From Jatrophihabitans sp. (GTDB taxonomy: Bacteria; Actinomycetota; Actinomycetes; Mycobacteriales; Jatrophihabitantaceae): 64,000 bases of DNA. Below the pieces are notes generated by a model. The model made no database searches and was not told the DNA's origin. It saw only the letters and a program-made list of their open reading frames with translations. Every line of letters starts with the position of its first letter. Position 1 is the stretch's first letter. Of this stretch, positions 1-50,025 are shown one piece after another. The DNA lies in contig DASWNX010000039.1 of the NCBI GenBank assembly GCA_036399055.1, positions 16,573-80,572 of the forward strand. The letters run 5' to 3'. The translations under genes and the position numbers were made by a program.

Positions 1-551
1 AGCATGTCCTCGTCGACCGGCGCGAACGGGCTCTTGTAGCGGGTCTCGAGCTGATCGAGGAACCCGCTGAGCGCGGCGTCGTCCCAGCCCTGCTCGCGCA
101 GGGCGGCCCCGACGGTGCGCCGGACGTAGGGCCAGCGCAGCCGCATCATGCTCGCCCGGCTGAACTCGCCGGTCAGGCTGTTGCCGATCACCACGCCGGT
201 GCTCTCACGCTTGAGGCCCTGGCCATCGGCGAACCCGGCGTCGGCCAGCGCCCGGGCGGCGGTGTCCAACGCCAGCCAGTGCGTCATGTCGGTGGAGCGG
301 TAGGTGCTTCCGGCGACTCGGTACTTCACCCGGTCGAACTCGAAACCCTCGATGACCGCTGCCTTCTGCGAGTAGAACCGGTCAGGTGCGGCGGGGTCGG
401 GGGAGTAGTAGTCCTCCAGCCGCATCCGCTCGTCGGGCAGCCGGCGAAACGCCCGTCGTCCGGCGAGCACGTTCTTCCAGAGGTCCTCGGGGGAGTCGGC
501 GTCGGGGTAGCGGCAGGAGATGCCGACGACTGCGATGCGATCGGCGCTCAT
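1..551 (-). CDS. pksE: Enediyne-type iterative polyketide synthase, N-terminal part (truncated by window edge)
   Basis: The first 183 residues of a ketosynthase-led polyketide synthase are present; the rest lies left of position 1. The protein opens with RIAVVGISCRYPDA and then has RRLPDERMRLEDYY, YRVAGSTYRSTDMTHWLALD and RLRWPYVRRTV. This run is characteristic of enediyne PKSs (SgcE/CalE8 type), which build the polyene precursor of the warhead on one ACP. The ketosynthase catalytic cysteine is not yet reached. The start ATG overlaps the stop of unbU (ATGA), so the two are translationally coupled. The order unbV-unbU-pksE matches the conserved enediyne cassette. Whether the missing part has KS-AT-ACP-KR-DH-PPTase cannot be seen here. 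Confidence 0.9.
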   Translation of the reverse strand, partial: MSADRIAVVGISCRYPDADSPEDLWKNVLAGRRAFRRLPDERMRLEDYYSPDPAAPDRFYSQKAAVIEGFEFDRVKYRVAGSTYRSTDMTHWLALDTAARALADAGFADGQGLKRESTGVVIGNSLTGEFSRASMMRLRWPYVRRTVGAALREQGWDDAALSGFLDQLETRYKSPFAPVDEDM

Positions 552-1555
552 ACCGCCACCGCCGCGGGGGCCTGGCTGATGGAGCGCTCGGCGCCTGCGG
601 CCCGACGCTGCTTGGACTTGGCGATGAAGTGCGCGCCCCACCAGCCCAGACCGCGCAGGGCACACACCGCGGTGGTGGCGAAGAACAGCGTGTAGACGAC
701 GTTGAACTGCATCATCACCGCGTAGACGAAGGCGACCGAGGCGCCGAACATGAACTGGCTGCGAGCCTTGAACGGCGTGGTGCCGGGGTCGGTGATCATG
801 TAGTTGGTGAACAGCACGAAGGCGACTCCGGTCATCGCGCCGAGCGCGGAGAACAGCGAGACGTCCCAGATCCAATGCCGGACGAAGGCCTGGATGGCGA
901 AGGCGCCCAGCCAGCCGACGATCAGGGGGATTTTGCGGGTGAGCATGGCGTTGATCACCGTTCCGGAGGTGACGATGATGAGGGGGATCATCACCCGAAA
1001 GAATGTGTTGGCGTTCTCGGTGAACTGGTAAGGCGGGGCGATGCTGCACCAGTGGCTGAAGCAGAGCAGCACCGCGGTGATGCCGAAGTTGGACGGGTTC
1101 ATGAAGTGCCGCATCCGCCCGGCGATCGGCGCCTGCAGGACATGCTTGGCGCCGACGCCCACCACCACGCCGAAGGCGACCGGCCAGAACTGGTTGTTGG
1201 TGTAAAGCAGCATGCTGACGGCGAGGCTGGTGATGTGGGCCGGCAGCAGTGACTCGTAGAGGCCGCGGAAGCCGTTGCCCCGGTACTTCGGCTGCCGCCG
1301 GTGCACCCACGCGCTGATGGTCTCGAAGAAGATCTCTGTGGAATAGCCCACCAGCACCGACAGGATCGGCCACAACCACGGTTGCTCGAAGCCGAGCCAC
1401 GCGTAGCCGAAGATGTTGAGAACGCTGATCGAGATGGCGAAGTTGCGCAGCGCGATATAGCGAGGGTCGGCCTTGGGCTTGCCGGCCGGCGCTGGAGCCG
1501 CGACCAGCGGCGATGGGCTAGGCGCAGCCGGTTGCTGCTGGATAGTGGCGGTCAT
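548..1555 (-). CDS. unbU: Enediyne biosynthesis membrane protein UnbU (E5-like)
   Basis: This 335-residue integral membrane protein has about seven hydrophobic segments and belongs to the conserved UnbU/E5 family found beside enediyne PKS genes. After a Pro/Ala-rich cytoplasmic start, segments run from about residue 40 to 320. The motifs HFMNPSNFGI (middle) and NYMITDPGTTP (late) resemble membrane subunits of RnfD/NqrB type, so an electron-transfer or cofactor role is possible; that is inference. I chose the ATG at 1555 because AGGAGG lies just upstream and because it overlaps the unbV stop (ATGA). The stop overlaps the pksE start in the same way, giving a tightly coupled three-gene unit. Confidence 0.88.
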   Translation of the reverse strand: MTATIQQQPAAPSPSPLVAAPAPAGKPKADPRYIALRNFAISISVLNIFGYAWLGFEQPWLWPILSVLVGYSTEIFFETISAWVHRRQPKYRGNGFRGLYESLLPAHITSLAVSMLLYTNNQFWPVAFGVVVGVGAKHVLQAPIAGRMRHFMNPSNFGITAVLLCFSHWCSIAPPYQFTENANTFFRVMIPLIIVTSGTVINAMLTRKIPLIVGWLGAFAIQAFVRHWIWDVSLFSALGAMTGVAFVLFTNYMITDPGTTPFKARSQFMFGASVAFVYAVMMQFNVVYTLFFATTAVCALRGLGWWGAHFIAKSKQRRAAGAERSISQAPAAVAV

Positions 1556-3540
1556 CGGCTTGATACCTCCTGGACAGTGTCCGTCAGGACGAGGGAGTGG
1601 ACGCCAGGCGTCATCTTGAGTTGTTGCTTGTGCAGTCGGCCGTCGACGTCGCGCCATTGCAGCTCCACGTCGGCTTCTGCGCTGAAGTCACCGAGGCCGA
1701 AGTGGACCTCGAAGCTCCGGAAGCCGCCGTGACCGCCGCCGCCGTCGAGTTGAGAGATCCTCTTTCCGTCCGGGGTGGTCACGGTCACCGTCGCGTTGTA
1801 GGCCGGCGCCCCGATATTGGCCAGTCCCTTGCCAGCTACCGCGCTGCTGTCACTGGCAGGGCGGTAGAGGTGCAGGTTGAGGTAGTTGCCCTTGTTCGGA
1901 GACTGGTTGGCGTAGAAGGCCGGTGGCCCCCACTGCCGTGCGATCGCGAAGTCCAGGGCTCCGGTGCCGGTGGTGTCAGCCGTGGCGAGCCCGCGGCTCG
2001 GAATGGGCACATCGGTTCCGATCTGAGAGCTGATGTTGACGTACTTGCCATCGGAGTTCTTGGCGTAGAAGGCCATGTGCTGATTGCCGGCGACGTCGTC
2101 ACCGGGGCCGACGTTCGGCCACATCGCGGGGTTGCTGAGCAGGTCGTCGTTGGTCATGGCCATCTCCTGTAGCCATGGCCACCGGTCGATCTTGCCCTTG
2201 ACGAAGCCGGTCGCCTGCAGGACGGACAGGTCACCGTTGTTGAGGAAGTCGCCCATCTTGACGTCCCAGCACCAGCCGGTCCAGCCCATTCCGTACTTGA
2301 CGGCCTGCTGCTCGAAGGGCGCGATGCCGGCGTCGAGCTTCTTCTTCATCTCGGCTTGGTCCTTGGCCTGGTTGATGAAGATGAAGTTGCTCTCCTGCAG
2401 GCCCCACTTGGCGGTGATGTTGCTGACCGCGAGGTCGAACTTGCCGGTGCGGTTGAGATCACCGAAGTCCGCGCCCATTCCCTTGAACGAGTCCTTGCCG
2501 AGCACGAAGGACTTGGCAGTCGTCGGCGCGCGCTGCCCGCTGGCCTCCTTGAACCTGATGTCGCCCGGGGTCGAGATGTTGTACAGCAGGTGGTCGTGGC
2601 CGAAGTCGTTGGCGATGTAGATGTCAGGCAGCCCGCTGCCGGTCAGGTCGGCGCCGGTGATGGCCAGCGTCCACCCGGTGGAGACCTGGTAGGGGATGGC
2701 GGCCTGCTGCTCGATGTAGTGCACGGTCGGCTTGTCGCCGGAGGTGGCGCTGTGCCAGCGCAGCACCCGGTCACCGCCGCCGTTCTTGGCGGTGGACAGC
2801 GAGTTGTTCATCTCGACGTTGTTCTGGCCGTGGGGATTGAGCACGTCGGACTCGGGGAAGTAGTTGCCGATGATGATGTCGGGGTGGCCGTCGCCGTCGA
2901 GGTCGCCGACATAGTCGGCGTCGGTGTTCCACCGCGGGCCGTGGTACCTGCCGTCCAAAGACTGCGAGGGAATGAGCTCCTGGGGCCGGTAGGAGGCCAT
3001 GGACAGGGTGGTGGCGCTGCTCTTGGCCAGGAACAGGATGGGGGTCCGGCCCCAGTAGGTGACCAGCAAATCCATCCGGCTGTCGCCGTTGAAGTCGCCA
3101 GGGTTGCAGCCTGTCGGCGCCATCGCGGCGTCCATCGGCAACGGGCTGGGGTCGAGCACGAACGGCGAGAACCGGTCCGCCGCCACCGCGGTCGGCGTGT
3201 AGGTGACGATCACGTCGTTGGTCCGGGTGTCCACGATGCACATGCCGTCCGAGCGCCCGTTGCCCACCAGGTCATTGATCGCGATGCTGGCGCCGACCGA
3301 GGAGATCCAGGCCGCGATCTTGGCGTATGCGCGGTTGACCGGGCGGATGGTCTCCATCTTCTGGTCGTTGTAGCCGGCAGGCATGGCGATGGGCAGCTCT
3401 TTGAACTTGTACTTGCTCGCCACTGTCTCCGCGCCGTAGGTCGCCACCCGGCTTTGAGCGACCACGTACAGGGAGACCAGGACCACGGCGGCCACCAGGC
3501 CGGGAACCAGCTTGCGGACACGTTCACGGGACACTGCCAT
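1552..3540 (-). CDS. unbV: Enediyne biosynthesis protein UnbV (E4-like), FG-GAP/CRTAC1 family
   Basis: This is a 662-residue protein with a single N-terminal hydrophobic segment (about residues 10-28, LVPGLVAAVVLVSLYVV), so it is membrane-anchored or exported. Several FG-GAP-like calcium-binding repeats follow (GDFNGDSRMDLLV, GDLDGDGHPDIII, GADLTGSGLPDIYIAND, GDLNRTGKFDLAV), consistent with a beta-propeller. The C-terminal 100 residues match the ASPIC/UnbV domain (GGGGHGGFRSFEVHFGLG). UnbV homologues are conserved in enediyne clusters, but I know of no settled biochemical role. The ATG at 3540 is preceded by a GAAGGG-type site; an in-frame start upstream would only add an atypical leader. The stop overlaps the unbU start. 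Confidence 0.9.
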   Translation of the reverse strand: MAVSRERVRKLVPGLVAAVVLVSLYVVAQSRVATYGAETVASKYKFKELPIAMPAGYNDQKMETIRPVNRAYAKIAAWISSVGASIAINDLVGNGRSDGMCIVDTRTNDVIVTYTPTAVAADRFSPFVLDPSPLPMDAAMAPTGCNPGDFNGDSRMDLLVTYWGRTPILFLAKSSATTLSMASYRPQELIPSQSLDGRYHGPRWNTDADYVGDLDGDGHPDIIIGNYFPESDVLNPHGQNNVEMNNSLSTAKNGGGDRVLRWHSATSGDKPTVHYIEQQAAIPYQVSTGWTLAITGADLTGSGLPDIYIANDFGHDHLLYNISTPGDIRFKEASGQRAPTTAKSFVLGKDSFKGMGADFGDLNRTGKFDLAVSNITAKWGLQESNFIFINQAKDQAEMKKKLDAGIAPFEQQAVKYGMGWTGWCWDVKMGDFLNNGDLSVLQATGFVKGKIDRWPWLQEMAMTNDDLLSNPAMWPNVGPGDDVAGNQHMAFYAKNSDGKYVNISSQIGTDVPIPSRGLATADTTGTGALDFAIARQWGPPAFYANQSPNKGNYLNLHLYRPASDSSAVAGKGLANIGAPAYNATVTVTTPDGKRISQLDGGGGHGGFRSFEVHFGLGDFSAEADVELQWRDVDGRLHKQQLKMTPGVHSLVLTDTVQEVSSR

Positions 3541-3915
3541 GATTAACCCTTCGCGGAGTAACAAGATCGACTGCATTGACGTTGCTGTCGGGGGGATCGG
3601 TGCGAAGTGCAAGCGCGACGCGAGGCGACGCCTGGGCCACCGTCCTGCTGTGAGCAACAGGACAAGGCCTCAGGCGCCGCTTTGCCTGCCTGCCATCGCC
3701 TACCGTTGTGAATTGGCCACCTTCGTCGATCAAGAATGCGACCCGGCCGGTTCGCTGGCCTCTCCCACCTTGCCCGGCTAACGCCGATGGTCTTTCAACA
3801 TGTTTTCAAGGCGATAACGAATCCGACGAGCTCCGGGTCGAACTGCCCAGCGGGCGCCAGGCGCCTGTCATCAGCCGGCGACGCAGCCGGCGATCGAGGA
3901 CTGCGCCAGGCGCGC
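3541..3915. other. 375-bp gap inside the enediyne locus, likely holding the unbV-unbU-pksE promoter
   Basis: I see no convincing gene here on either strand. It separates the AhpD-like gene from unbV, both read on the minus strand, and is far longer than the other gaps in this locus, which are overlaps or tens of bases. A separate promoter for unbV-unbU-pksE is therefore likely. A weak hairpin (CCTGCTG/CAACAGG around 3644-3662) and an AT-richer patch at 3790-3830 are the only visible structure. Confidence 0.45.
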
Positions 3916-4983
3916 TCAGCAGCTGATCTGCAACCAGCTGGCGATCTGGCGGGCGGCTGCCATGCTGGCCCACGAGGTGGTGGCGATCAGCGCTTGGTCA
4001 CCGGGCTGCTCGCGGCCGAAGGCGTCGATGACCGACTGGTCGACCTGGAAGGGCGCCAGCGCGGTGAGCAGCACGAGCCGGCCGCTGGCCTGCTGGCCGG
4101 CCGGCAGCGCCAGCACCTCTTCCTCAACCCAGGACCGGCTCAGGCCGAGCTGCCGGCCGTCCCAGCCGGCCAACCGTGACCGCAGCGCAGTCCGCACGGG
4201 TGTCGGGACGTGCGTGTGACCGGCCGCCTCGATGGCTGCGCTCGCGCGGGCGAACGCCTCGGCGATGTGCGGGCTGCCGGCCGCCCACCACAGCTCCGGC
4301 GGCAGCGGCGCCGCGGGCAGTAGCTCCAGTGAGGCGCCCGGCTGATGAGGATGACCGGCGGTGGCGCTGATGAACCGTCCGAGCACCCGCAGAACGCCGC
4401 CGCGGGCCAGCGTGGGAAGGGCCGGCGGCAGTGGCGAGTCGTCGAGGAAGATGTCGACCATCCGGTTGACGTAGTGAAAGGAGACGGCGACGCCGGCGAT
4501 CTCGGGCGCCTGCTCCAGAGAGAAGGGCGCGTCCTGGGGTCGGCCGTCTGGGCGCATCCCCGACCGGCGCGCCCACTGGGCCAGCGCCCGCACGTCAGGA
4601 TCTGCGATCGAGTCCATGTCGCCGGAGGTGACCGCGGCCGCGGTCGGGCCGCCCAGCAGCCCGGACAGCGTCGCCGAGTGCACCGTGACGCAGTACGGGC
4701 ACGCGTTGCCCAGCGACACGGCCGCTGCGACGGCTTCCTTGGCGCCCCGCGAGACCTGGCCGTCAGCCAGCAGCGGCTCCCGCAGCATCATCCAGCTGGC
4801 GGCCAGCGGCCCGGGCGCCGGCGAGTGCAGCGCCACCGGCGGCGCCAGCATGCCGAAGTCCCGCTCGGCCTGCCGGTAGACCCTGGTCACCATGTCGTCA
4901 GCGCCGCCTGTTCGGGCCGGGGTGACGTGCTTGATGCGATCCAGCGATCGGCGAAGCGCCTTCTGCAGAAGTGACTTGGCCAT
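3916..4983 (-). CDS. AhpD/carboxymuconolactone-decarboxylase-like protein in the enediyne locus
   Basis: The 355-residue protein has an AhpD-like core near residues 75-110 with the redox-type motif NACPYCVTVHSATL (CxxC followed by His). This is the hallmark of the CMD/AhpD fold. The family usually carries one or two such cores in 150-200 residues; the remaining 240 residues are Ala/Pro-rich and helical and I do not recognise them. It sits immediately before unbV, where enediyne cassettes usually carry the E3/UnbL gene, so it may be that protein, but I cannot confirm it by sequence alone. I chose the ATG at 4983 for its AGGAG site; an in-frame ATG seven codons upstream is less well placed. Confidence 0.7.
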   Translation of the reverse strand: MAKSLLQKALRRSLDRIKHVTPARTGGADDMVTRVYRQAERDFGMLAPPVALHSPAPGPLAASWMMLREPLLADGQVSRGAKEAVAAAVSLGNACPYCVTVHSATLSGLLGGPTAAAVTSGDMDSIADPDVRALAQWARRSGMRPDGRPQDAPFSLEQAPEIAGVAVSFHYVNRMVDIFLDDSPLPPALPTLARGGVLRVLGRFISATAGHPHQPGASLELLPAAPLPPELWWAAGSPHIAEAFARASAAIEAAGHTHVPTPVRTALRSRLAGWDGRQLGLSRSWVEEEVLALPAGQQASGRLVLLTALAPFQVDQSVIDAFGREQPGDQALIATTSWASMAAARQIASWLQISC

Positions 4984-5015
4984 CGACGCTCCTAGTGGGT
5001 GCACATGGGCCGACG

Positions 5016-6671
5016 TCAGCCGGCGAGCAGCCGAGCGGCTGCCTTGTCGGCCTGGTTGCGGGCGCTGACGGCGCCGTCCGGAGACGGGGCGCCATAGCGG
5101 ACGTCGACACCGCGTCGCTGGGCCGCCCGGATGATCGCCGGCATGGCCCGCTCGGCCAGGGCGGCGATGGTCATCGCCGGATTGACGGTCAGCGCGCCGG
5201 GCACCGCCGAGCCGTCGGTGACGAAGATGCCCGGATGACCGCGCAGCTCGTGGTCAGCGTCCAGCGCCGAGGTCTTCGGGTCGTCGCCGATCCGGCAGGA
5301 CGCCAGCGGGTGCACGGTGACCGCGCCCACCACGTCATTGGTCCAGGGCATCACCTTGGCCAGGCCGTCCTTCTCCAGGATGCTCCTGACCGCGGCGTCT
5401 CCCTTGGCCCAGCCGTTGAGGGTGTTCTTGGTCGGCTGGTACCTCAGCGGGCCCAGACCGAACATCTGCTGGGACACCCGCATCGAGCTACCGGTAGGCG
5501 GCGGCGGTCCGAAGACGCCTTCGTTGTCGTCCTCGGACATGATGAAGACGGTCAGCCAGGACTGCCAGCGCCGCAGCATCTCCTTCTTCTCCTTGCCGAA
5601 CCAGGTCGGTCCGGTGGCGTCGGCCACCTGGGCCAGGGTGGTGCCCAGCCCCGGTGGGAAGTACAGCTGCTCCAGGGAGAACCGGTCGTACTCCGGCAGC
5701 GAGCCGTCCTGCCAGTCCCAGCACGCGGCGACCGGGCCCTTGCCGATCTGCCCTGCCTCGAAGGCCTTGCCGCCACCGCGGTTCAGGCCCAGCACGTCAC
5801 GAACCCGGTCCTCGTTCAGCACGGCGGTGTTGAGGCGCTCGCCGTTGCCGGAGAAGTACTTGCCGACCGCCTCCGGCATCGTGCCCAGGCTGGGCTCCGA
5901 GCGCCGCAGGATGACCGGTGTCGCCACCGAGCCGGCCGCCAGCACGATGAGCTTGGCGTCGATGACGCCGTTGCCGGTCTGCTCGCGGTAGTCGACCTCG
6001 TCCAGGGTGTTGTAGTGCACCCGGTAGCCGCCGTCGGAATCGCGGGTGATCTGCTGGACCTCGTGCAGCGGCCGGATCTCGGCGCCGTGCGCGAGCGCGG
6101 CGGGAAGGTAGTTGAGCAGCAGTGAGCGCTTGGCGTCGAACTTGCAGCCCGACATCATCCAGTTGCAGTTGACGCACCGCGAGACGTCGACCGCGGCCGG
6201 AGCCGGATTGCAGGTGTGACCGGCGTTGGCGCACGCCGCTGCCCACAGCCCGCCGGCGTAGGGCACGGTCTCCCACGTCTGCTTGGTGACCGGCAGCGAC
6301 TCGGCCACCCGGTCATACCAGGGCTCCAGGCTGTCCCGACTGACGGCGGCCGGCCACATCCGACGGCCGACGCTGCCCTGCCGGTCGAAGATGAAGCGCG
6401 GCGCGCGCGGCATGGTGGCGAAGTACACGACGCTGCCGCCGCCCACGCAGTTGCCGCTGAGCACGCTCATGCCTTCGCCCACGGTGAAGTCGAGCATCCG
6501 GGTGGTGGACGAGCCGAGTGCGAAGTCATGCTCGAAGTCCTCGGCCTCCAGCCATGGGCCGCGTTCGAGCACCACCACCCGGGCGCCGCCGGCAGCCAGG
6601 TGGTAGGCCGCGATCGCGCCGCCGAAGCCGCTGCCGATGACGAGGACGTCGGTGCTTTCGGTGCTGCTCAT
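5016..6671 (-). CDS. GMC-type FAD-dependent oxidoreductase (cholesterol-oxidase-like branch)
   Basis: This 551-residue flavoprotein begins with a Rossmann FAD-binding motif (VLVIGSGFGGAIAAYHLA, then VVVLERG at about residues 9-38). A cysteine-rich stretch follows (SRCVNCNWMMSGCKF, about residue 165-180), and it ends with the GMC C-terminal signatures HPLASCRIGDD and GSAVPGALTVNPAMTIAALAERA. Such enzymes oxidise alcohols using FAD. The ATG at 6671 overlaps the stop of the small upstream gene (ATGA). Pairing of a GMC enzyme with a small subunit-3-like protein resembles membrane gluconate dehydrogenases. A role in tailoring an enediyne or its polyene precursor is inference from location. Confidence 0.85.
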   Translation of the reverse strand: MSSTESTDVLVIGSGFGGAIAAYHLAAGGARVVVLERGPWLEAEDFEHDFALGSSTTRMLDFTVGEGMSVLSGNCVGGGSVVYFATMPRAPRFIFDRQGSVGRRMWPAAVSRDSLEPWYDRVAESLPVTKQTWETVPYAGGLWAAACANAGHTCNPAPAAVDVSRCVNCNWMMSGCKFDAKRSLLLNYLPAALAHGAEIRPLHEVQQITRDSDGGYRVHYNTLDEVDYREQTGNGVIDAKLIVLAAGSVATPVILRRSEPSLGTMPEAVGKYFSGNGERLNTAVLNEDRVRDVLGLNRGGGKAFEAGQIGKGPVAACWDWQDGSLPEYDRFSLEQLYFPPGLGTTLAQVADATGPTWFGKEKKEMLRRWQSWLTVFIMSEDDNEGVFGPPPPTGSSMRVSQQMFGLGPLRYQPTKNTLNGWAKGDAAVRSILEKDGLAKVMPWTNDVVGAVTVHPLASCRIGDDPKTSALDADHELRGHPGIFVTDGSAVPGALTVNPAMTIAALAERAMPAIIRAAQRRGVDVRYGAPSPDGAVSARNQADKAAARLLAG

Positions 6672-7237
6672 GCGGGACTCCCAGAAGCGGTGGTGGCCGG
6701 ATGGATCTCGGCGAGCTGACGGCCGTAGGTGTAGTCGGGGAACCGCCACAGGCCGTCGGCGTCCGGCGGCCTGAAGCCGAGGGTCAGCAGGCCGGGGTGT
6801 CCGCCGGCCAGCGCGTCGACGGTGTGCAGGTGCGCGCCGCTGTCGAAGGACATGGTGGAGAACATCGCCAGGTTCACCCAGCCCTGGCGCTCCGGGTGAT
6901 CCCCGGCGGTCAGCCGCAGCACCAGGGCGGCCCGGTGGTCGTAGTCGAGGCTGACGAAGGCCGGGACGCTGTCATCGAGCTCGATTCCCTGCTCGCCCGC
7001 GTACTCGCGGGCGTGGCCGTTGAGCATCGCGGCCAGGATGGGCAGGTACAGGGACAACCCACCCGCCGGGGATTCGAGCAGTTCGACGGCGCCCGCCGCC
7101 ACCGCCCCGCCGTCATGGGACACCCCTGCCACCGCCCGGTCACCAGGCCAGCGCTTGTTCCCGGGAACGATCGTGTCGGCGAAGGCCTCGAGGGTCATCA
7201 CCTTGATCTGCTCCTCGTCGGAGGTAGTCGGTTCCAT
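6668..7237 (-). CDS. Small partner of the GMC oxidoreductase (DUF5987/gluconate-dehydrogenase subunit 3-like)
   Basis: The 189-residue protein opens with the helix TLEAFADTIVPGNKRWPGD, the pattern seen in gluconate 2-dehydrogenase subunit 3 and DUF5987-type proteins that accompany GMC flavoproteins. No signal peptide or metal-binding motif is obvious. The ATG at 7237 has a strong AGGAGAGG site, and the stop overlaps the start of the GMC gene (ATGA), which supports a two-subunit enzyme made in fixed ratio. The family assignment is from pattern recognition; the functional link to enediyne production is inferred from its place in the operon. Confidence 0.7.
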   Translation of the reverse strand: MEPTTSDEEQIKVMTLEAFADTIVPGNKRWPGDRAVAGVSHDGGAVAAGAVELLESPAGGLSLYLPILAAMLNGHAREYAGEQGIELDDSVPAFVSLDYDHRAALVLRLTAGDHPERQGWVNLAMFSTMSFDSGAHLHTVDALAGGHPGLLTLGFRPPDADGLWRFPDYTYGRQLAEIHPATTASGSPA

Positions 7238-7286
7238 CGCAAGCCTCTCCTGTTGCGCCGGTAGCTGGTTCTGGCCCGGAGCCGCC

Positions 7287-8108
7287 TCAGCGACGGGCGG
7301 CCAGCGTGCTCAGGTGGTGGTGAAACTGCCCGGGCCGGCGACCCTGGCCGGCCGGTCCTCGGTAGGCCTGAGCGATCTGGAGCCAGTGCTGGGCGTCCGG
7401 GCCGACGGCGGTGATCGCGAGGTCCTCGGGGTGCCGGCGGCGGGTGACCAGCAGGCAGAAGTCCTCCGCCGGGCCGCTGATCCGCTGGTCGGCGTCCTCG
7501 GGACCGAACTGCCACTGGGCGCCGGAGGGCGCGGTCAGCTCGAAACGGAATCGCACGTCCGGGACGGGCTCATCGCGAGCCAGGTAACCGAAGTCCCAGG
7601 TGCGCACCGCGAACGCGACGAGGAATCTGATGCGGTCAGTGCGGCGACGCTGGACGCCGAGCGTGTCGGCGATGTCCTGGCCGTGCGCGAAAGCCTCCGT
7701 CATCCCGGCCATCATCAGGATGCCGCGCGGCAGTGGTCTGACCAGCCACGGCACCAGCTGGTCCGCGGGCACCGAGGCCAGCGCCTGCATCGCGGCGGCC
7801 CGCTCGGCCCGCCAGCGGCTGAAGAGCACCTCGGGCGGGTGGGGCAGGTACTGGCTCAACGCGTTGGCCACGCTGACGGTGAAGTCCGGGTCGAGTCCTC
7901 GCATCAGCGCGATGAAGGCATCCGGATCGGAGGCGGACAGCCCGGCCATCCGGAACGTCGCGGCCAGGTGCGCGACCTGATGTGCCACGGTCCAGCCAGG
8001 CGCCGGGGTGGGCAGCTTCCACTGCTCGTCGGCCAAGCCGGCCAGCAGCTCGTCCAGCTCGTCACATTCGGCTGTCAATGCCTCGGTCGGGTCCGGGTGC
8101 TGGATCAC
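7287..8108 (-). CDS. TIGR03084-type protein (mycothiol-dependent maleylpyruvate isomerase-like)
   Basis: This 273-residue protein has a DinB/MDMPI-like N-terminal helical bundle (residues 1-160) with WTVAHQVAHLAA, where the histidines fit a metal site, and TEAFAHGQDIADTLG. A C-terminal domain (about 170-260) follows, as in the TIGR03084 family of actinobacteria. Relatives use mycothiol or act as thiol-dependent transferases or isomerases; the substrate here is unknown. I chose the GTG at 8108 because GAGAGGA lies just upstream and the family N-terminus aligns there. It is the first gene of the minus-strand operon that leads into the enediyne genes, so it could supply thiol-dependent detoxification or self-resistance. 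That is inference. Confidence 0.72.
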   Translation of the reverse strand: MIQHPDPTEALTAECDELDELLAGLADEQWKLPTPAPGWTVAHQVAHLAATFRMAGLSASDPDAFIALMRGLDPDFTVSVANALSQYLPHPPEVLFSRWRAERAAAMQALASVPADQLVPWLVRPLPRGILMMAGMTEAFAHGQDIADTLGVQRRRTDRIRFLVAFAVRTWDFGYLARDEPVPDVRFRFELTAPSGAQWQFGPEDADQRISGPAEDFCLLVTRRRHPEDLAITAVGPDAQHWLQIAQAYRGPAGQGRRPGQFHHHLSTLAARR

Positions 8109-8394: not shown

Positions 8395-11300
8395 ATGTCA
8401 TGGAAACGGTGCGTGATGAAGTGGAGGTCTCCGGCGCGCCGGGCGACCGCGCTGGTCACGGCCTGCGTCGTGGCGAGCCTGAGCACTAGCATGCTGCAGG
8501 CGCCGCGAGCCTCGGCTGCCTCGCCCGCGATCACGGCGAGCTTGCAGGCGCCGGCCACCGTGCTCGCCGGCAAGCCGGTGAGCTTCACCCTGACCGCCGC
8601 GAACCCCTCGGCCGCCGGTGCGCAACCGGAGTACAACACCTCGTTTCGCGATCTGCTGCCGCCGGGCCTGACCTACCAACCCGGCTCGACCACGCCCGCC
8701 GACCTGGGCGAGCCGACCGTCCTGACCGACCCCGGCAACGGCCGGCAGACCCTCATCTGGAGCGACGTCTTCGACCTGGCCATAGGATCCTCGGCCAGCC
8801 TCAGCTTCTCGGCCACCGCGAGCCTGCCGGTCGGCAGCACGGCGAACAACGTCATCACCGCCTATGCCAGCACCGAGCCGCGCTACGTCGCGCACTTCAC
8901 GGCGGCCGGCCTGCCGATCGCCGACTCCCGGATCCAACCGGCGGCCAGCAATCAGGGCTCGACCGTGATCACCGCCTTGCAGCTGAGCAAGACCGAGTCC
9001 AGCCCGGCCGCCAAGCTGCTACGCGGCGCGCACCAGCATTCCACGGTCTACACCCTGCGGCTGGGCAACAGCAGCCAGGCCGCCACCACCGGCGTCACCG
9101 TGCTGGACTACCTGCCGGCCGCGCAGGAGTTCCTCGGCTGCGGCCAGCTGGACAACACCGCCGGCGCGACCGTGGAGTACCCCGGGGCCGCGCGGCTCAG
9201 CACGACTCCCGCGGTAGGCACTGACTGCCTGGCGCCCACCTCGGTGGACACCGTGCTCAACCCGCCCGCGAACGGAACCGTCAGCTACCCACCCGGCGTC
9301 TACACCAAGCTGACCTGGACGCTGGGCACGCTCGCCGCCGGCCAGGTCAGCACCATCCGCTATGCCGCCGCCGTCGCGCTGAGGCAGAACGCGCTGTTCG
9401 CCTCCGGCCCGAGCCCCGCCTCGCTCGGCCAGGCCGCCAACCTCGACAACAACACCGGCGCGAGCACCCGTCAGCTCAACGACGCAGCCCCGCTGGTCAA
9501 TTACGCCCACGCCGAGGGCAGTTACACCGGCGCCGCCATCGGCGGCGCGGCCAGTGTGTCGGACACCAGCCATCAGGTGAGCGTGCACGATCTGCGGATC
9601 CAGAAGTCGGTCACCCCGTCGGAGTTCGTGGCCGGCGGCCTCGCCGGTTACACCCTGCGCCTGGACTCGGGGGAGTACACCGACGCCTCGGCCATCGTGA
9701 TCACCGATGTGCTGCCCAACGGGACCTGCCCGCTGGACGAGAACGGCAACCACGCCGCCGGGGCCCCGGCCGACTGCGCGCCGGGCGCCGGCTTCGCGCC
9801 GTCACTGCCTTACCAGTCGGTCAGCCAGAACCCCGACGGCAGCTTCACCGTCGTCTTCCAGCCGGTCGCGGTGCCCCGCAACGGCTCACTGAGCATCACC
9901 TACGCCGCCCGCAACCGGGCCAGCTACACCGGCGGCCCCCTGGCCGGGTTGCCGCCGGCGGCCGGCGACAGCTTCACCAACACCGCGACCGGGCAGGGAA
10001 CCTCGACACCGGCGCCGGGCACCGGCGTGACCGCGGACCAGCCGGTCCGCGATGCCAGCTCGGCGACCCAGACCAGCTCCACCAGCACCCTGAGCGCCTC
10101 GGTCGCCGCGCGCACCACCCCGATGGACTGCTCGGCCCCCGGTCTCAGCTACGGCGCGGGCAACCCGGTGTTCGCCAAGGGCGATCGGATCTGCTTCCAG
10201 CTGCGGGTCGGGTTGTCAGCGGTCAACCAGACCCGCAACGCGGTGCTGACTGACTTCCTGCCAGTCGACACCGCCTACGAGGACGGCAGTGTCAGTTACC
10301 CGGCCGCCAACACCGTCGACCCGGCGCAGATCAGCTTCGACGCGGCCGCGGCCGCCAGCGGAGCGCTCAGCTGGCGGCTGGGGACGACCCAGGCCGACGG
10401 GTCCACCACGGTGGCCGCGGGCAAGGTGTTCGTGGTCCGCTTCAGCGTCCTGGTGACGGCTCCGGCGCCTGGCCCCGCGCCGGACAAGCTGGGCAACATC
10501 GCCAAGCTGCGCAGCACCGACAGCGCGGGAAAGGCCAGCTCGCTGCGGGCCGGCGCCGACTTTCAGATAGCGGCCGCGCCGCCGGTCGCGATAGCCAAGG
10601 GGGTGGCCAGCCTCAACGGCGCCGTGCCGGCGCCGGGCCCCAACGCTGACCACGTGCTGGTCCGCCAGGGCGATTCGGTGGTGTTCGAGATCGAGGTCGA
10701 CAACACCGGCAGCGCCGCCACCAGCAACGCTGTCGCCGTCGATGACCTGCGACTGTGGGACGTGCTGCCCGCAGGCCTGCGGTGCGCCCAGCTGAGCGCC
10801 GTCAGCGACGCCGGCGTCTGCACCGATCCGGCGGCGCCAGGGCACCCGGCCTTCACCGGCGACTCCAGCCTGAGCGCCCTGGTGTGGAGCGGCGCCGCGC
10901 TGCCCGCCGGCGCCCGCAAGAGCTACCGGTACACCGTGACCATTCCAGCCGGGGTGAGCGTCTCGACGGTCTTCGACAACACCGCCGCGGTGCGCTCGTA
11001 CTCCGCGGGCACCGACCTGCCCGGAGCCGGGACCGGCAGCGCCACCTTCTACCCGAGCGCCAACATCGAGAGCACCGTCCTGCCCGGCCAGTACGACGCC
11101 CCGGCCGCCAGGGACACCAGTGACGTCTACCTCCGCAATGTCACCGTCAGCTCCGGTGTCAGCTCCGCCGTCGCCGAGACCGGCAACATCGGCGCCGAGC
11201 CGAGCCCTGCCGGCAGCACTCAGGCCACCATCGGCGAGCAGCTGAGCTGGACGGTCACCGCTCGGGTTCCTGCCGGCTCGAGCGTCTACAACGCCTTTCT

Positions 11301-14300
11301 CAGCAGCCCGTTGCCTGCCGGGCTGTCACTGGTCAGCGCCGTCGCGACGTACACCGCAGACGCCGGGTCGCCGGCCGACCAGCCGCTGCCCGCCGGCTTC
11401 ACCTTCGACCCCGCCGCGCCGAGCATCCGTTGGCCGGCCAGCTATGACAACAGCACCGGCGCCGACCACCTGTTCGCCCTGACGATCACCGCCCGCCTGG
11501 CTTCGGTGGCGGCGAACCAGCATGGGGTGAGCCGTACCAGCACCGCCGCGTTCAGCAGCGCCACCGCGGTCACCGGTGGCGCCCTGCTGCCGGCCCGGAC
11601 GGCGGCCTCCAGCGTCACCGACGTGGAGCCCCTGCCCTCGCTGACCAAGACCAATGACGCCGGCGCCGGCGTGGCCGGCGGCCAGAGCGTCTCCTATCTG
11701 GTGAAGGCGGCCAACGCCGCCGGCCGGCCGGCGCTGCACGACAGCTGGGTGGCCGACTGCCTCCCGCCGGGCCTGACCTTCACCGGCTACGCCACGCCGC
11801 CTGCCGGGGTGAGCGCCGCCGCGGCCACCGCGGGGGACGGCAGCAACGGCTGCCCCCCGGGCACGACCCTGCTCAGCTGGAACGTCGGCGACCTGGCCGG
11901 CGGCTCGTCGCGCAGCCTGGCCTACAACGTCACCGTCGACCCGTCGGCGTCGGGCAAGGCCAGTTATCCCAACCTCGCCGCGCTCACCGGCAACAGCCTG
12001 ACCGGCGTCCGCACCTCGCCTGCCCAGCAGGGCAACCCGGCCGGCCGGCAGTACAGCGCCGGCGCCACCAGCACGGTCCTGGTCGTCGGCGCCACCGCGC
12101 TGACGTCGGTCGCGCCGGCCTCGGCCACGGTCGGCGGCGTCGTGAACTACACCACCTCGGCGGTGCTGCCGGCTGGAGTGAACTTCTACAACCTGTCGCT
12201 GATCGACCAGCTGCCGGCCGGCATCGACCCCAGTTCGGTGACGCAGGCTGCGATCAGCTGCGCCTACGCAGACAGCTCGCCGTGCACTCCTGACACCGCC
12301 GTCCGGCTGTCCTCGGCCGCCGGAGCGGGCGCCGCCACCCTGATCGGCTGGCTGCTCGGCGACGTGCCCACCGCCAGCCAGACCAGGACGGTCAGCGTCC
12401 AGTACTCGGCGCGCGTCGCCGACATCGCCGGCGTCAGCGCCGGCTCGGTGCTGCCCAACTCCGCGCGCGTCGGCTGGGACAACGCCGCCCGGACGCCTCC
12501 GGCCGGGGCAGGCGCGGCCTACGAGCAGTCGAGCCCGAGCGCGGCCGCGGCTGTCACGGTGCTCGAGCCGGGACTGTCGGTGGCCAAGGCAGTAAGCAGG
12601 CTGCATCCCGAACCCGGCCAGAGCTTCGGCTACACCGTCACGGTCAGCAACCGCAACACCGCTGCCACGAGCGCCGCCCACAACATCACGGTCACCGACA
12701 CGGTGCCGGCCGGTGTCGTCGTCGACCCGGCCAGCGTCTCCGGCGGCGGCAGCGTCAGCGGCGCGCACCCCACCACTGGCGGTGGGGTGCTGTCCTGGAC
12801 CCTGCCGGGCCCGCTCGCCAAGGGCGCCTCGCTGCCGGGACTCAGCTACACCGCCACCCTGGCTCCGTCGGGCTCGGTGACGGCCGCGGCGCTGGTCAAC
12901 ACCGCGCGGATCACCGGCTATGACTCGTTGCCGGTCGGCGGCCGGCACTACACCGGGCCGAGCGCGACCGCCACGATCACCGCGTACTTCCCCAGGGTGA
13001 CGACCACCAAGTCGACGCCGGCCACCAGCACCGCCTACATCGGCGAGTCGTTCAGCTGGCTGGTGACGGTGCGCAACACCGGCTCAGGAGTGGCCTACCA
13101 GGTCGCCAGCACCGACACGTTGCCGCCGAACTGGAGCTATGACGCCGGCAGCGCGCGGGTGTCGGTCGCAGGCGGTCCCGCCACCGCGGTCGAGCCGGCG
13201 GTGGTCAGCGCCGGCGCGGTTCAGACACTGAGCTGGACCGGCTTGGGCGCCCTCAACCCGACAGCGGCGCTGACCATCGCGTTCACCGCGACACCCCAGC
13301 CTGGCGTGAGCGGGTCACCCGGCGTGGGCCTGACCGTCAACCACACCAACTCGGCCTCCTCCAGCGCGCAGGACGCCACCGGCGCCAGCGCCAACGGCGC
13401 CGGCGGCTACACCGCCGGCCCGGGCAGCGCCGCGGCGCGCATCGCCTCCGCCGACCTGAGCCTGACCAAGGCGGTCGGAGCGGCGCCGGTCGCCGGCGGC
13501 AGCGGCAGCTGGGTGCTCACGGTGCGCAATAACGGGCCGAACCCGGCCACCGGTCCGTTCACCGTCGTCGACCAGTTCAGCAACCCCTCGCCCAGCGCGG
13601 TGAGCTCGATCAGCGCCTCGGGCGCCGGCTGGTCCTGCAGCACCGCCTCGCCGATCAGCTGCCAGCGCACCGCGGCCGGCGACACCCTGGCCAGCGGCGC
13701 GTCCTTCCCGGCCATCACGATCGGCTACTCGGTGGATCCCTCGGCGCCTGAGGGCAGCACGCTGTCCAGCGTCGCGACCGTCAGCGCGCGAACCCAGGAC
13801 CCCGCCACCGCCAACAACAGCGCCAACGCCGTCGCGACCGTGCGCGCCCGCGCGGACCTGGCGGTCACCGTCGGCCTCGCCTCGCCCCAGCTGATCGCCG
13901 GAGCGCCAGCCAGCTACCAGGTGGCCGTCACCAACTCCGGTCCTTCCAACGCGGTCGGCCCGATCAGCGTCGACGCCTCGCTGCCGGCGGGCAGCAGCTT
14001 CGTGTCGGCCTCCGGCGCCGGCTGGAGCTGCGACCCGATCGCGGCTGGAACCACTGGCGCCGTCCTGCACTGCACGATGCCCGGCCCGCTCAGCGTCGGC
14101 GCGGCGCCGGCCGCCGTGTCGGTGACGGTGGCCATCGCCTCCTCCCAGACCGGGCCGGTCACCGCCACAGCCAGCGTGGCAGCGCCCACCGCCGACCCCA
14201 CTCCCGCCAACAACTTCGACGTCCAGACCGACACGCCGTCGCTGCGCGCCGACCTGGTGATTCAGAAGCTGCACCTGACCGACCCGTTCGTCGCCGGCGG

Positions 14301-48298: not shown

Positions 48299-49471
48299 AT
48301 GCCGACGTTGACCGCGCTCCCCGGCGGCTCGGCGGCCAGGTACCCCGCCGCCGAGTTCTTCGCGGGCATCGGCCTGGTGCGCCTGGGCCTGGAAGCGGCG
48401 GGATTCGGCGTCGTCTGGTCCAACGACATCGAGCCGGACAAGCAGGACATGTACCGCGGGCACTTTCAGGACGCGCCGCTGACGCACGAGTTCCACCTCG
48501 GCGACATCGGCCAGGTCTCGGGCGCCTCGTTGCCGCCGGAGCTGTCGCTGGCCTGGGGCTCCTTTCCCTGCACCGACCTCTCGCTGGCAGGTTCCCGGCG
48601 TGGCCTGGCCGGCAAGGCATCCGGCGCCTTCTGGCACTTCACCCGGGTGCTGGAGGAGATGGGCGAACGCCGGCCGCCGGTCCTGGCGCTGGAGAACGTC
48701 GTCGGCCTGGCCACGAGCCATGGCGGCGAGGACCTGGCCGCGGCGGTGGGGGAGCTGAACCGGCTCGGCTACTCCATCGACGTGCTGACCCTGGACGCCA
48801 GACGGTTCGTGCCGCAGTCCCGGCCCCGGCTGTTCCTGGTGGGCGCGCTGGACGCGCCCGCAGACTCGCCGGTCCGCAACAGCGAGCTGCGCCCCGACTG
48901 GCTGCAGGCGGTGTTCGGCGACCCCACGTTGATCACCCATCAGGCGGCGCTGCCCGTCCCGCCGCCGCCGATGACGGCAGGTCTGGGTCAGCAGGTCGAG
49001 GTCTTCGACCCCGCCGACGACCAGTGGTGGCCCGCCGAGCGCACCGCCGCGTTCGTGGGGTCACTGAGCCCCTTGCAGTCGCGTCGCCTGCACGCCATGC
49101 GGGAGCTGGACGCCTACTCTCACCGCACTGCCTACCGGCGGACCCGAGAGGGGATAGCGGTGTGGGAGATCCGCCCCGACGACGTCGCAGGATGCTTGCG
49201 CACCGCCCGGGGCGGGTCGTCCAAGCAGGCCGTGGTGCAAGCCGGCCATGGCGAGGTGCGGGTGCGCTGGATGACCCCCCGTGAATACGCCAGGCTCATG
49301 GGCGCCCCCGACTATCGCTTGGATGGACTTCGGCGAAACCAGGCCTTGTTCGGCTTCGGCGACGCGGTGTGCGTTCCGGTGGTCACCTGGTTGGCAGGCA
49401 ACTACCTGATGCCTCTGGTCCGCGGCCAACTGCGGTCCGGGGACACCGCGCTGTCGGTGGCCGGCGCCTGA
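48299..49471 (+). CDS. DNA (cytosine-5) methyltransferase, Dcm-like
   Basis: The 390-residue enzyme has the ordered C5-methyltransferase motifs. Motif I is EFFAGIGLVRLGLEAAGF (from residue 19). Motif IV is GSFPCTDLSLAG with the nucleophile Cys91. Motif VI is ENV (132-134) and motif VIII is QSRPRLFLVG (173-182). The C-terminal GDAVCVPVVTWLAGNYL is motif X-like. The target recognition domain lies at about 200-310, and the site recognised cannot be read from sequence. A Vsr-type endonuclease gene follows 50 bp downstream; no restriction endonuclease is seen. Confidence 0.92.
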   Translation: MPTLTALPGGSAARYPAAEFFAGIGLVRLGLEAAGFGVVWSNDIEPDKQDMYRGHFQDAPLTHEFHLGDIGQVSGASLPPELSLAWGSFPCTDLSLAGSRRGLAGKASGAFWHFTRVLEEMGERRPPVLALENVVGLATSHGGEDLAAAVGELNRLGYSIDVLTLDARRFVPQSRPRLFLVGALDAPADSPVRNSELRPDWLQAVFGDPTLITHQAALPVPPPPMTAGLGQQVEVFDPADDQWWPAERTAAFVGSLSPLQSRRLHAMRELDAYSHRTAYRRTREGIAVWEIRPDDVAGCLRTARGGSSKQAVVQAGHGEVRVRWMTPREYARLMGAPDYRLDGLRRNQALFGFGDAVCVPVVTWLAGNYLMPLVRGQLRSGDTALSVAGA

Positions 49472-49521
49472 CGCTGTCGGCGCAGGGCGCGCTCGCGGTG
49501 GGCGCGTCGTATCGTGGGGCG

Positions 49522-50025
49522 GTGGCCGAAGAGTCCTGGGCATCGACACCGGCGGTGCGTAGCTCGATGCGGTCCAACAAGAGCAGGGACACCAAGCCGG
49601 AGCTGGCGGTTCGGCGGGCGCTGCACGCTCTGGGCCTGCGTTACCGGGTCTGTGAGCGCCCCTTGCCGGCAGTCCGCCGGACGGTTGACGTGGTCTTCCG
49701 GCGGGACCGGGTGGCCGTGGAGGTGCGGGGCTGCTTCTGGCACGGGTGCGCCCAGCACTACCGCGGCCCGTCCACCAACGGCGGTTACTGGGCTGAGAAG
49801 GTGGCCCGCAACATCGCCCGGGACGCAGACACCGAGCGCCGGCTGTCCGAGGCCGGCTGGACCCTGCTGGTGGTGTGGGAGCACGAGGACCCGCAGTCGG
49901 CGGCCCTGCGGGTGCGCCAGGTCCTCAGCGAGGCCCGCGGCGGCGCCGGCTCGAACACCGGCTCGAACGCCGACTCGAGCGCCGGCTCGAACACCGGCCA
50001 GTTGAGCGGTGCGTCCTCCGGCTGA
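49522..50025 (+). CDS. vsr: Very short patch repair endonuclease (Vsr)
   Basis: The 167-residue protein has SSMRSNKSRDTKPELAVRRAL at the start, then VRRTVDVVFRRDRVAVEVRG with the catalytic Asp (about 56) and CFWHGCAQHY (71-80), then KVARNIARDADTERRL and VVWEHED. These are the standard Vsr motifs. Vsr nicks T:G mismatches made by deamination of 5-methylcytosine, so it protects the sites of the adjacent methyltransferase. The last 25 residues are a repeated tail (GSNTGSNADSSAGSNTG) outside the family core. The GTG at 49522 was chosen from the family start and a GGGGC upstream. Confidence 0.9.
   Translation: MAEESWASTPAVRSSMRSNKSRDTKPELAVRRALHALGLRYRVCERPLPAVRRTVDVVFRRDRVAVEVRGCFWHGCAQHYRGPSTNGGYWAEKVARNIARDADTERRLSEAGWTLLVVWEHEDPQSAALRVRQVLSEARGGAGSNTGSNADSSAGSNTGQLSGASSG

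Follow-up and report, generated by a model that had tools for sequence, protein, structure and literature searches.

A small, C-1027-like candidate enediyne cluster at the left edge of a 64-kb stretch of a Jatrophihabitans genome

Cluster overview

The stretch analysed here (the window) comprises 64,000 nucleotides of a Jatrophihabitans sp. genome (assembly GCA_036399055.1, contig DASWNX010000039.1; G000:C39:16573-80572), and its left edge, as read from the sequence, forms the right-hand portion of a small enediyne biosynthetic cluster of the C-1027 kind that is nearly complete. The predicted cluster extends over C39:1141-24680, approximately 23.5 kb with 15 genes (Table 1). Window positions 1–8108 very probably represent the right third of this compact core cluster, whose product would most likely be a sparsely decorated nine-membered-type enediyne or a cycloaromatised form of it; ring size, activity and the product itself are predicted. 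The host genome (G000) measures 4.53 Mb in 46 contigs and is 99.5% complete. A 16S rRNA gene was not detected in it, and among 14 named genomes compared its rpoB is closest to that of Saccharothrix (84%), with 83% to a Micromonosporaceae genome, which leaves more than one family in play. Contig C39 has 80,572 bases, of which 16,572 precede window position 1.

A preliminary description of the window had reported the N-terminus of an enediyne-type polyketide synthase (PKS) together with coupled unbU and unbV genes. Pfam and C-1027 matches, as well as ATGA junctions, confirmed these three genes in that order, and the full PKS, an E10 thioesterase and further enediyne genes were found left of the window, in agreement with the proposed type of locus. 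The expectation that the rest of the cluster lies to the left holds for about 15.4 kb, which end at an IS481 element, but four cluster genes within 3916–8108 (AhpD-like, GMC, DUF5987 and TIGR03084) had been missed. Likewise, the E7-type P450 was found on the left as anticipated, whereas the E9-type gene, like those of types E8 and E11, lies inside the window.

Table 1. Genes of the predicted cluster and associated features. Coordinates prefixed C39 refer to contig C39 (L004) and unprefixed ones to the window (C39 position minus 16572). Domains are from Pfam and NCBIfam profiles.
Feature	Coordinates	Strand	Match or remark
DUF1702 gene, taken as E2	C39:1141-2106	+	58% to C-1027 gene
DUF1702 gene, E3	C39:2290-3261	+	53% to C-1027 gene
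Cytochrome P450, E7 type	C39:~3266-4648	+	65% to C-1027 gene
AraC-type regulator	C39:4767-~5585	-	37% to C-1027 gene
HsaA/acyl-CoA-dehydrogenase-type flavin monooxygenase	C39:7258-8439	-	62% to C-1027 gene
Alpha/beta hydrolase	C39:8872-9744	+	weak match over 80 amino acids in C-1027
HxlR regulator (E1)	C39:9822-10475	-	42% over 102 amino acids to C-1027 gene
E10 thioesterase	C39:10732-11211	-	71% to C-1027 enzyme
PksE	C39:11214-17123 (window 1..551 = N-terminal 183 codons)	-	1969 amino acids
UnbU/E5, RnfD-like membrane protein	548..1555	-	54% over 294 amino acids to C-1027 gene
UnbV/E4, ASPIC + FG-GAP protein	1552..~3600	-	46% over 660 amino acids to C-1027 gene
AhpD/carboxymuconolactone-decarboxylase-like protein	3916..4983	-	46% to C-1027 cluster protein
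GMC oxidoreductase, E9 type	5016..6671	-	73% over 541 amino acids to C-1027 gene
DUF5987 protein, E8 type	6668..7237	-	286.7 bits; 57% to C-1027 gene
TIGR03084/mycothiol-dependent-isomerase-like metal-binding protein, E11 type	7287..8108	-	288.8 bits (cut-off 247.95); 53% to C-1027 gene
IS481 transposase, partial	C39:1-810	-	NCBIfam 251.1 bits, above cut-off
Giant DUF11-repeat surface protein, outside cluster	8413..17148	+	TIGR01451 6.1e-92; 82% identical neighbour in G002
Membrane protein of the sister genome, 279 amino acids	G002 C5:25679-26518 (L101:15679-16518)	-	no Pfam/NCBIfam match

Several of the genes are tightly packed: ATGA overlaps occur at the UnbV/UnbU, UnbU/PksE and DUF5987/GMC (4 bp) junctions, and two bases separate the PksE stop from the E10 start. 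UnbV matched the Pfam profiles UnbV_ASPIC (3.5e-11) and FG-GAP_3 (3.4e-15); its start is placed at 3495 by codon score, and 3600 was taken for searches. The NQR2/RnfD-like match of UnbU (23.8 bits) falls below the Pfam cut-off of 27.7, and the Pfam CMD and NCBIfam ahpD_dom matches of the AhpD-like protein are each below cut-off as well. A 166-amino-acid frame at C39:6717-7217, with neither a Pfam match nor a gene-finder call, was left out of the gene count.

Polyketide synthase and E10 thioesterase

Pfam domains of the iterative PksE appear in the order ketosynthase, acyltransferase, acyl carrier protein, ketoreductase and dehydratase (KS-AT-ACP-KR-DH), and the KS cysteine, the AT motif GHSLGE, the ACP motif LSS and the KR and DH motifs align with those of the C-1027, calicheamicin-type and dynemicin PksE proteins. 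At the C-terminus no Pfam match to a phosphopantetheinyl transferase (PPTase) was obtained at E 0.001; the D-E and W..E..K residues, which we take to be the PPTase motifs, align with C-1027 and dynemicin, and the W..E..K stretch is present in the calicheamicin-type protein. The proposed KS-AT-ACP-KR-DH-PPTase layout is thus supported by Pfam up to the DH domain and by motifs only for the PPTase.

Against SgcE of C-1027, PksE scored 1895 bits (54% identity over 1977 columns), and UnbU and UnbV scored 305 and 562 bits against the C-1027 cluster; these scores exclude chance matches. The E10 thioesterase, correctly expected to the left of the window, matched 4i4j (7e-69), CalE7 (1.2e-63) and DynE7 (~2e-38).

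According to the excerpted text of Yan 2016 (PMC5181780), E3/E4/E5/E/E10 form a cassette that all ten enediyne clusters compared in that paper share. All five genes are present in the cluster described here.

Comparison with other enediyne loci

The C-1027 reference was the plasmid SGLP1 of Streptomyces globisporus C-1027 (NZ_CP013739.1). Fourteen of the 15 cluster genes each have a partner of their own in C-1027, at 37–73% identity. In C-1027 a row comprising an HTH gene, two DUF1702 genes, UnbV, UnbU, the PKS, SgcE6, a P450, AraC and StrR-type regulators, DUF5987, GMC, the thioesterase and TIGR03084 is found, with an alkylhydroperoxidase and an acyl-CoA-dehydrogenase-type gene farther along. 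Compared with this arrangement, E2, E3 and E7 of the window genome lie on the opposite strand, and seven genes separate E7 from E4. E6, the StrR-type regulator, the chromoprotein and the sugar and aromatic side-group genes of C-1027 have no equivalent in the window cluster. Fourteen more C-1027 proteins, among them the halogenase, the SgcC-type hydroxylase, the aminomutase, transporters, SgcD and SgcG, were compared with C39 and gave two matches, both weak: the alpha/beta hydrolase and, at a distance, a PaaK-type ligase at 26% (C39:69547-70791).

The first DUF1702 gene is 58% identical to the first DUF1702 gene of C-1027 and the second is 53% identical to the second, as opposed to 38% crosswise. 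Since the single DUF1702 gene of the calicheamicin-type (51% versus 40%) and dynemicin (33% versus 31%) regions is nearer to the second, E3, we took the first to be E2; the comparison likewise supports taking the first DUF1702 gene of C-1027 as its E2. The HxlR regulator was designated E1 in line with the HxlR-like SgcE1, as described in the excerpted text of PMC2657911.

A plasmid of Streptomyces sp. NBC_00523 (NZ_CP107837.1) carries a similar cluster (PksE 66%, E10 78%, GMC 76%, UnbU 69%), in which E2–E5 and E7–E11 are all present, along with E6 and more genes; the record gives no product name. PksE matches were found in 208 plasmid records, 49 of them covering 80% or more of the protein. 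The ten-membered references were identified by their E10 proteins, which are 97.9% identical to CalE7 (2w3x) in the calicheamicin-type genome G093 and 100% identical to DynE7 (2xem) in the dynemicin genome G090. Their clusters have E3, E4, E5, PksE and E10 in common with the window cluster. Within 140 kb around PksE in both, no counterpart of E2, E6, E8, E9, E11, the AhpD-like protein or the flavin monooxygenase was found, and none of the E7 type either, the P450s there being less than 30% identical.

A scan of named genomes with six peptide patterns gave 79 distinct PksE loci among the matches listed, for which genes were counted within flanks of up to 10 kb, many of which end at contig ends. 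On this basis E10 was found in 77, E5 in 71, E4 in 70, E3 in 62, E6 in 61, E7 in 57, the AhpD-like gene in 50, E8 in 36, E9 in 32, E11 in 25, E2 in 11, HxlR in five and the flavin monooxygenase in four, with a second P450 in none. Carriers of the E8/E9 set were mostly Amycolatopsis. By this co-occurrence, the AhpD-like, GMC, DUF5987 and TIGR03084 genes belong with PksE. DUF1702 was detected in seven of 61 genomes examined (the window genome included) and in two of eight other genomes of the same genus. The metagenome-assembled genome Pseudonocardiales bacterium BP_201 has two PksE genes (L031 and L059), 55% and 82% identical to that of the window.

Sister genome and missing genes

In G002, a genome of the same genus, an orthologous cluster at C5:26977-57373 shows the same gene order and 75–91% amino acid identity over the 15 genes. 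It differs by six extra genes inside the cluster that are absent from C39, which encode an enoyl-CoA hydratase, a CoA-transferase, a P450 (57% to one in C-1027), an N-acetyltransferase, an FkbM-type methyltransferase and E6. BLAST revealed no remnant of them at the three gaps, where only flanking sequence aligns. G002 further has a membrane-protein gene left of E2, the spot that is occupied by IS481/IS110 in the window genome. Relatives of this protein at 55–56% occur in the calicheamicin-type and dynemicin regions, and in 20 of the 79 PksE loci among the matches listed; no relative was found in the C-1027 stretches examined. The gene stands together with E2 in G002, L037, L069 and G043:C147. 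Its use as an R3 marker was rejected, since descriptions of the tiancimycin R3 make it a kinase-family protein of the AarF/ABC1/UbiB type. Elsewhere in G002, an AraC regulator and an E7-type P450 (60%) stand together with a DUF1702 gene at a second locus on C6 (L103:15111-17509), and C7:289868-290731 carries a third, distant DUF1702.

Neither SgcE6 nor G002 E6 as a query matched anything on C39. The best E6-like protein elsewhere in the window genome reached 38%, and three flavin reductases were 34–38% identical to E6. Because E6 is present in 61 of the 79 other PksE loci among the matches listed, its absence from C39 is most likely a loss. The excerpted text of PMC6165268 states that SgcE6 supplies reduced FAD to the C-1027 halogenase and hydroxylase. 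No homologue of either enzyme was found on C39, and E6 may on these grounds be dispensable in the window genome; the flavin monooxygenase, which is kept, would nevertheless depend on a reductase. In the excerpted text of Yan 2016 (PMC5181780), the E6 flavin reductase is not among the group-defining features, and in three E2-carrying loci among the matches listed (L025, L038 and L082) E6 was not found within the flanks.

The preliminary description had also expected a self-resistance gene, but no resistance or transport gene was recognised among the cluster genes. The cluster has no recognised peripheral genes, and genes for sugar or aromatic side groups were not found next to it. The only signal for a chromoprotein (neocarzinostatin-family apoprotein, PF00960) was 20.6 bits, below the cut-off of 25, in a 1875-amino-acid frame on contig C15.

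The absence of these genes raises an alternative that we regard as a real contender, albeit an improbable one: the cluster could be decaying and the enediyne no longer made, its open frames being recent leftovers after the loss of E6 and other tailoring genes. As to the origin of the cluster, decay is compatible with our preferred explanation. It would account for the remnant-free absence of the six sister genes, for the insertion elements at the site of the sister's conserved membrane-protein gene and for the low identity (38%) of the best-matching E6-like protein encoded outside C39. On the other hand, all 15 genes are open, with no internal stops in either genome, and the PKS motifs are intact. 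Pairwise ratios of nonsynonymous to synonymous substitution rates (dN/dS) against G002 range from 0.15 to 0.44 over the 15 genes; the neighbouring alcohol dehydrogenase and DUF11 genes have values of 0.10 and 0.37. The ratios of the cluster genes speak for constraint over the lineage rather than for present-day activity, such values being compatible with a recent loss of function. The missing partners of SgcE6 and the three E2-carrying loci likewise devoid of E6 also argue against decay.

The same gaps allow a more pointed proposal, which we consider unlikely, that the cluster is a stripped pathway in which a working nine-membered core set (E1–E5, E and E7–E11) has been kept while E6 and the peripheral, chromoprotein and dedicated resistance genes were shed. 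If true, such a pathway would make a near-bare core or a cycloaromatised product and would show which genes are sufficient for the core.

Predicted product and ring size

In the sparsely decorated nine-membered-type pathway that we favour, PksE and E10 would make and then release a linear polyene from malonyl units, as is established for the family. By analogy with the family, E3/E4/E5, E2, the E7 P450, E8/E9, the AhpD-like protein and E11 would convert this polyene to a nine-membered core. The sparse decoration is predicted because E6, the five other sister genes, the chromoprotein and the sugar and aromatic genes are absent.

In the excerpted text of Yan 2016 (PMC5181780), the exclusive presence of E2 predicts a nine-membered and that of R3 a ten-membered enediyne. 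Assuming that R3 is a UbiB/ABC1-type protein, as TnmR3 appears in the excerpted text of PMC9464397, no ABC1 match was found among the 17 proteins scanned from C39:1-24.7 kb. On gene content the core is best predicted to be nine-membered, since the set matches that of C-1027 and E2, E7, E8, E9 and E11 lack counterparts in the 140 kb around the ten-membered PksE genes.

A PksE tree had been suggested as a means to tell nine- from ten-membered enediynes, and conclusions on ring size were drawn from such a tree in a Phytohabitans paper (excerpted text of PMC7692728). Our tree (109 rows, 1706 columns, FastTree, midpoint root) left out 31 rows shorter than 1650 amino acids and contains one gene twice (L110 and L186); rows were cut at 2100 amino acids, so that the calicheamicin-type row lacks its C-terminal end. 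The calicheamicin-type PksE groups beside C-1027 (support 1.0) and dynemicin is placed far off; the tree therefore does not separate the two classes and does not decide ring size, which was judged from gene content instead. The window and sister sequences pair with support 1.0 in another clade than C-1027, with support of 0.999 for the wider and 0.57 for the narrower node.

Several points weigh against our reading. E6, common among the other loci, is missing from C39, and the left border is partly based on synteny, given that the 141-bp end of C39 recurs in two other contigs. The wider clade of the window PksE includes Kitasatospora sp. CB01950, which the excerpted text of Yan 2016 (PMC5181780) predicts to be ten-membered. 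The E7-type P450 is found in CB01950 too and is no clean marker. G002 combines E2 with the membrane gene of the calicheamicin-type and dynemicin regions, which makes the gene content of the lineage mixed. Lastly, the numbers E2–E5, E7–E9 and E11 on the C-1027 genes are assignments that go beyond the records, which name SgcE6, SgcD and SgcG only.

That the product is a ten-membered or other enediyne, with the E2/E8/E9/E11 set being an unreliable signal of ring size in this lineage, appears distinctly unlikely to us. The clade shared with CB01950 and the pairing of E2 with the membrane gene in all four loci named above would fit it, and ring size is proven for no close relative, but the C-1027 gene set lacks counterparts in the 140 kb around PksE of the two ten-membered references, and no R3-type protein was among the 17 scanned. 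We find it very unlikely that the PksE cassette makes a polyene or other non-enediyne metabolite: although no transport, resistance, peripheral or chromoprotein gene came to light, the five cassette genes are joined by E2, E7, E8, E9 and E11, which co-occur with them elsewhere.

Borders of the cluster

Both borders were judged against G002: IS481/IS110 on the left and the giant DUF11 gene on the right. The first bases of contig C29 are those of C39:1-141 in reverse complement; next comes an IS110 transposase (188.5 bits), which sits within the remainder of IS481 (L128:1-1660). A further copy of the 141-bp end lies in C12, and copies of the element's opposite end are found in C8, C9 and C15. 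By assembly alone the left neighbour of C39 would be either C29 or C12; synteny favours C29, as the 279-amino-acid membrane protein of G002 is followed by genes that match C29:1669-7941 of the window genome at 88%. By the same synteny, GGDEF/EAL genes lie beyond the left border.

On the right, the window and sister clusters have the DUF11 gene and an alcohol dehydrogenase as common neighbours, in keeping with a border near 8108 as first proposed. At this position (C39:24680) the TIGR03084 gene, the rightmost of the cluster, was called to start, and not DUF11, which begins near 8413. The C-terminal stretch of the DUF11 protein is rich in glycine, serine and proline.

Significance

Few antitumour natural products are as potent as the enediynes, and the division of their genes between core and decoration is still being worked out. 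The window and sister clusters form a natural comparison for dispensable E genes, E6 first. Mining for enediynes is already wide, with 81 strains in 28 clades in the excerpted text of Yan 2016 (PMC5181780), where clusters often measure 80–120 kb with 50–75 genes; the amycolamycin cluster is given as ~76 kb in that of PMC8037709. The cluster described here is of a known kind and is notable for its compactness (few genes), its host and the comparison with its sister. In the literature searched, no enediyne report for the host genus was found.

Further observations

At 48299–50025 the window encodes a C5-cytosine DNA methyltransferase and, after it, a short Vsr-type endonuclease; a scan of six neighbouring proteins recognised no restriction enzyme. 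In the genus that holds the CalE7 and DynE7 matches, taken as Micromonospora, an E10-type thioesterase was matched at E 1e-15 or better in 84 of the 160 genomes, and enediyne-type clusters look very common there.

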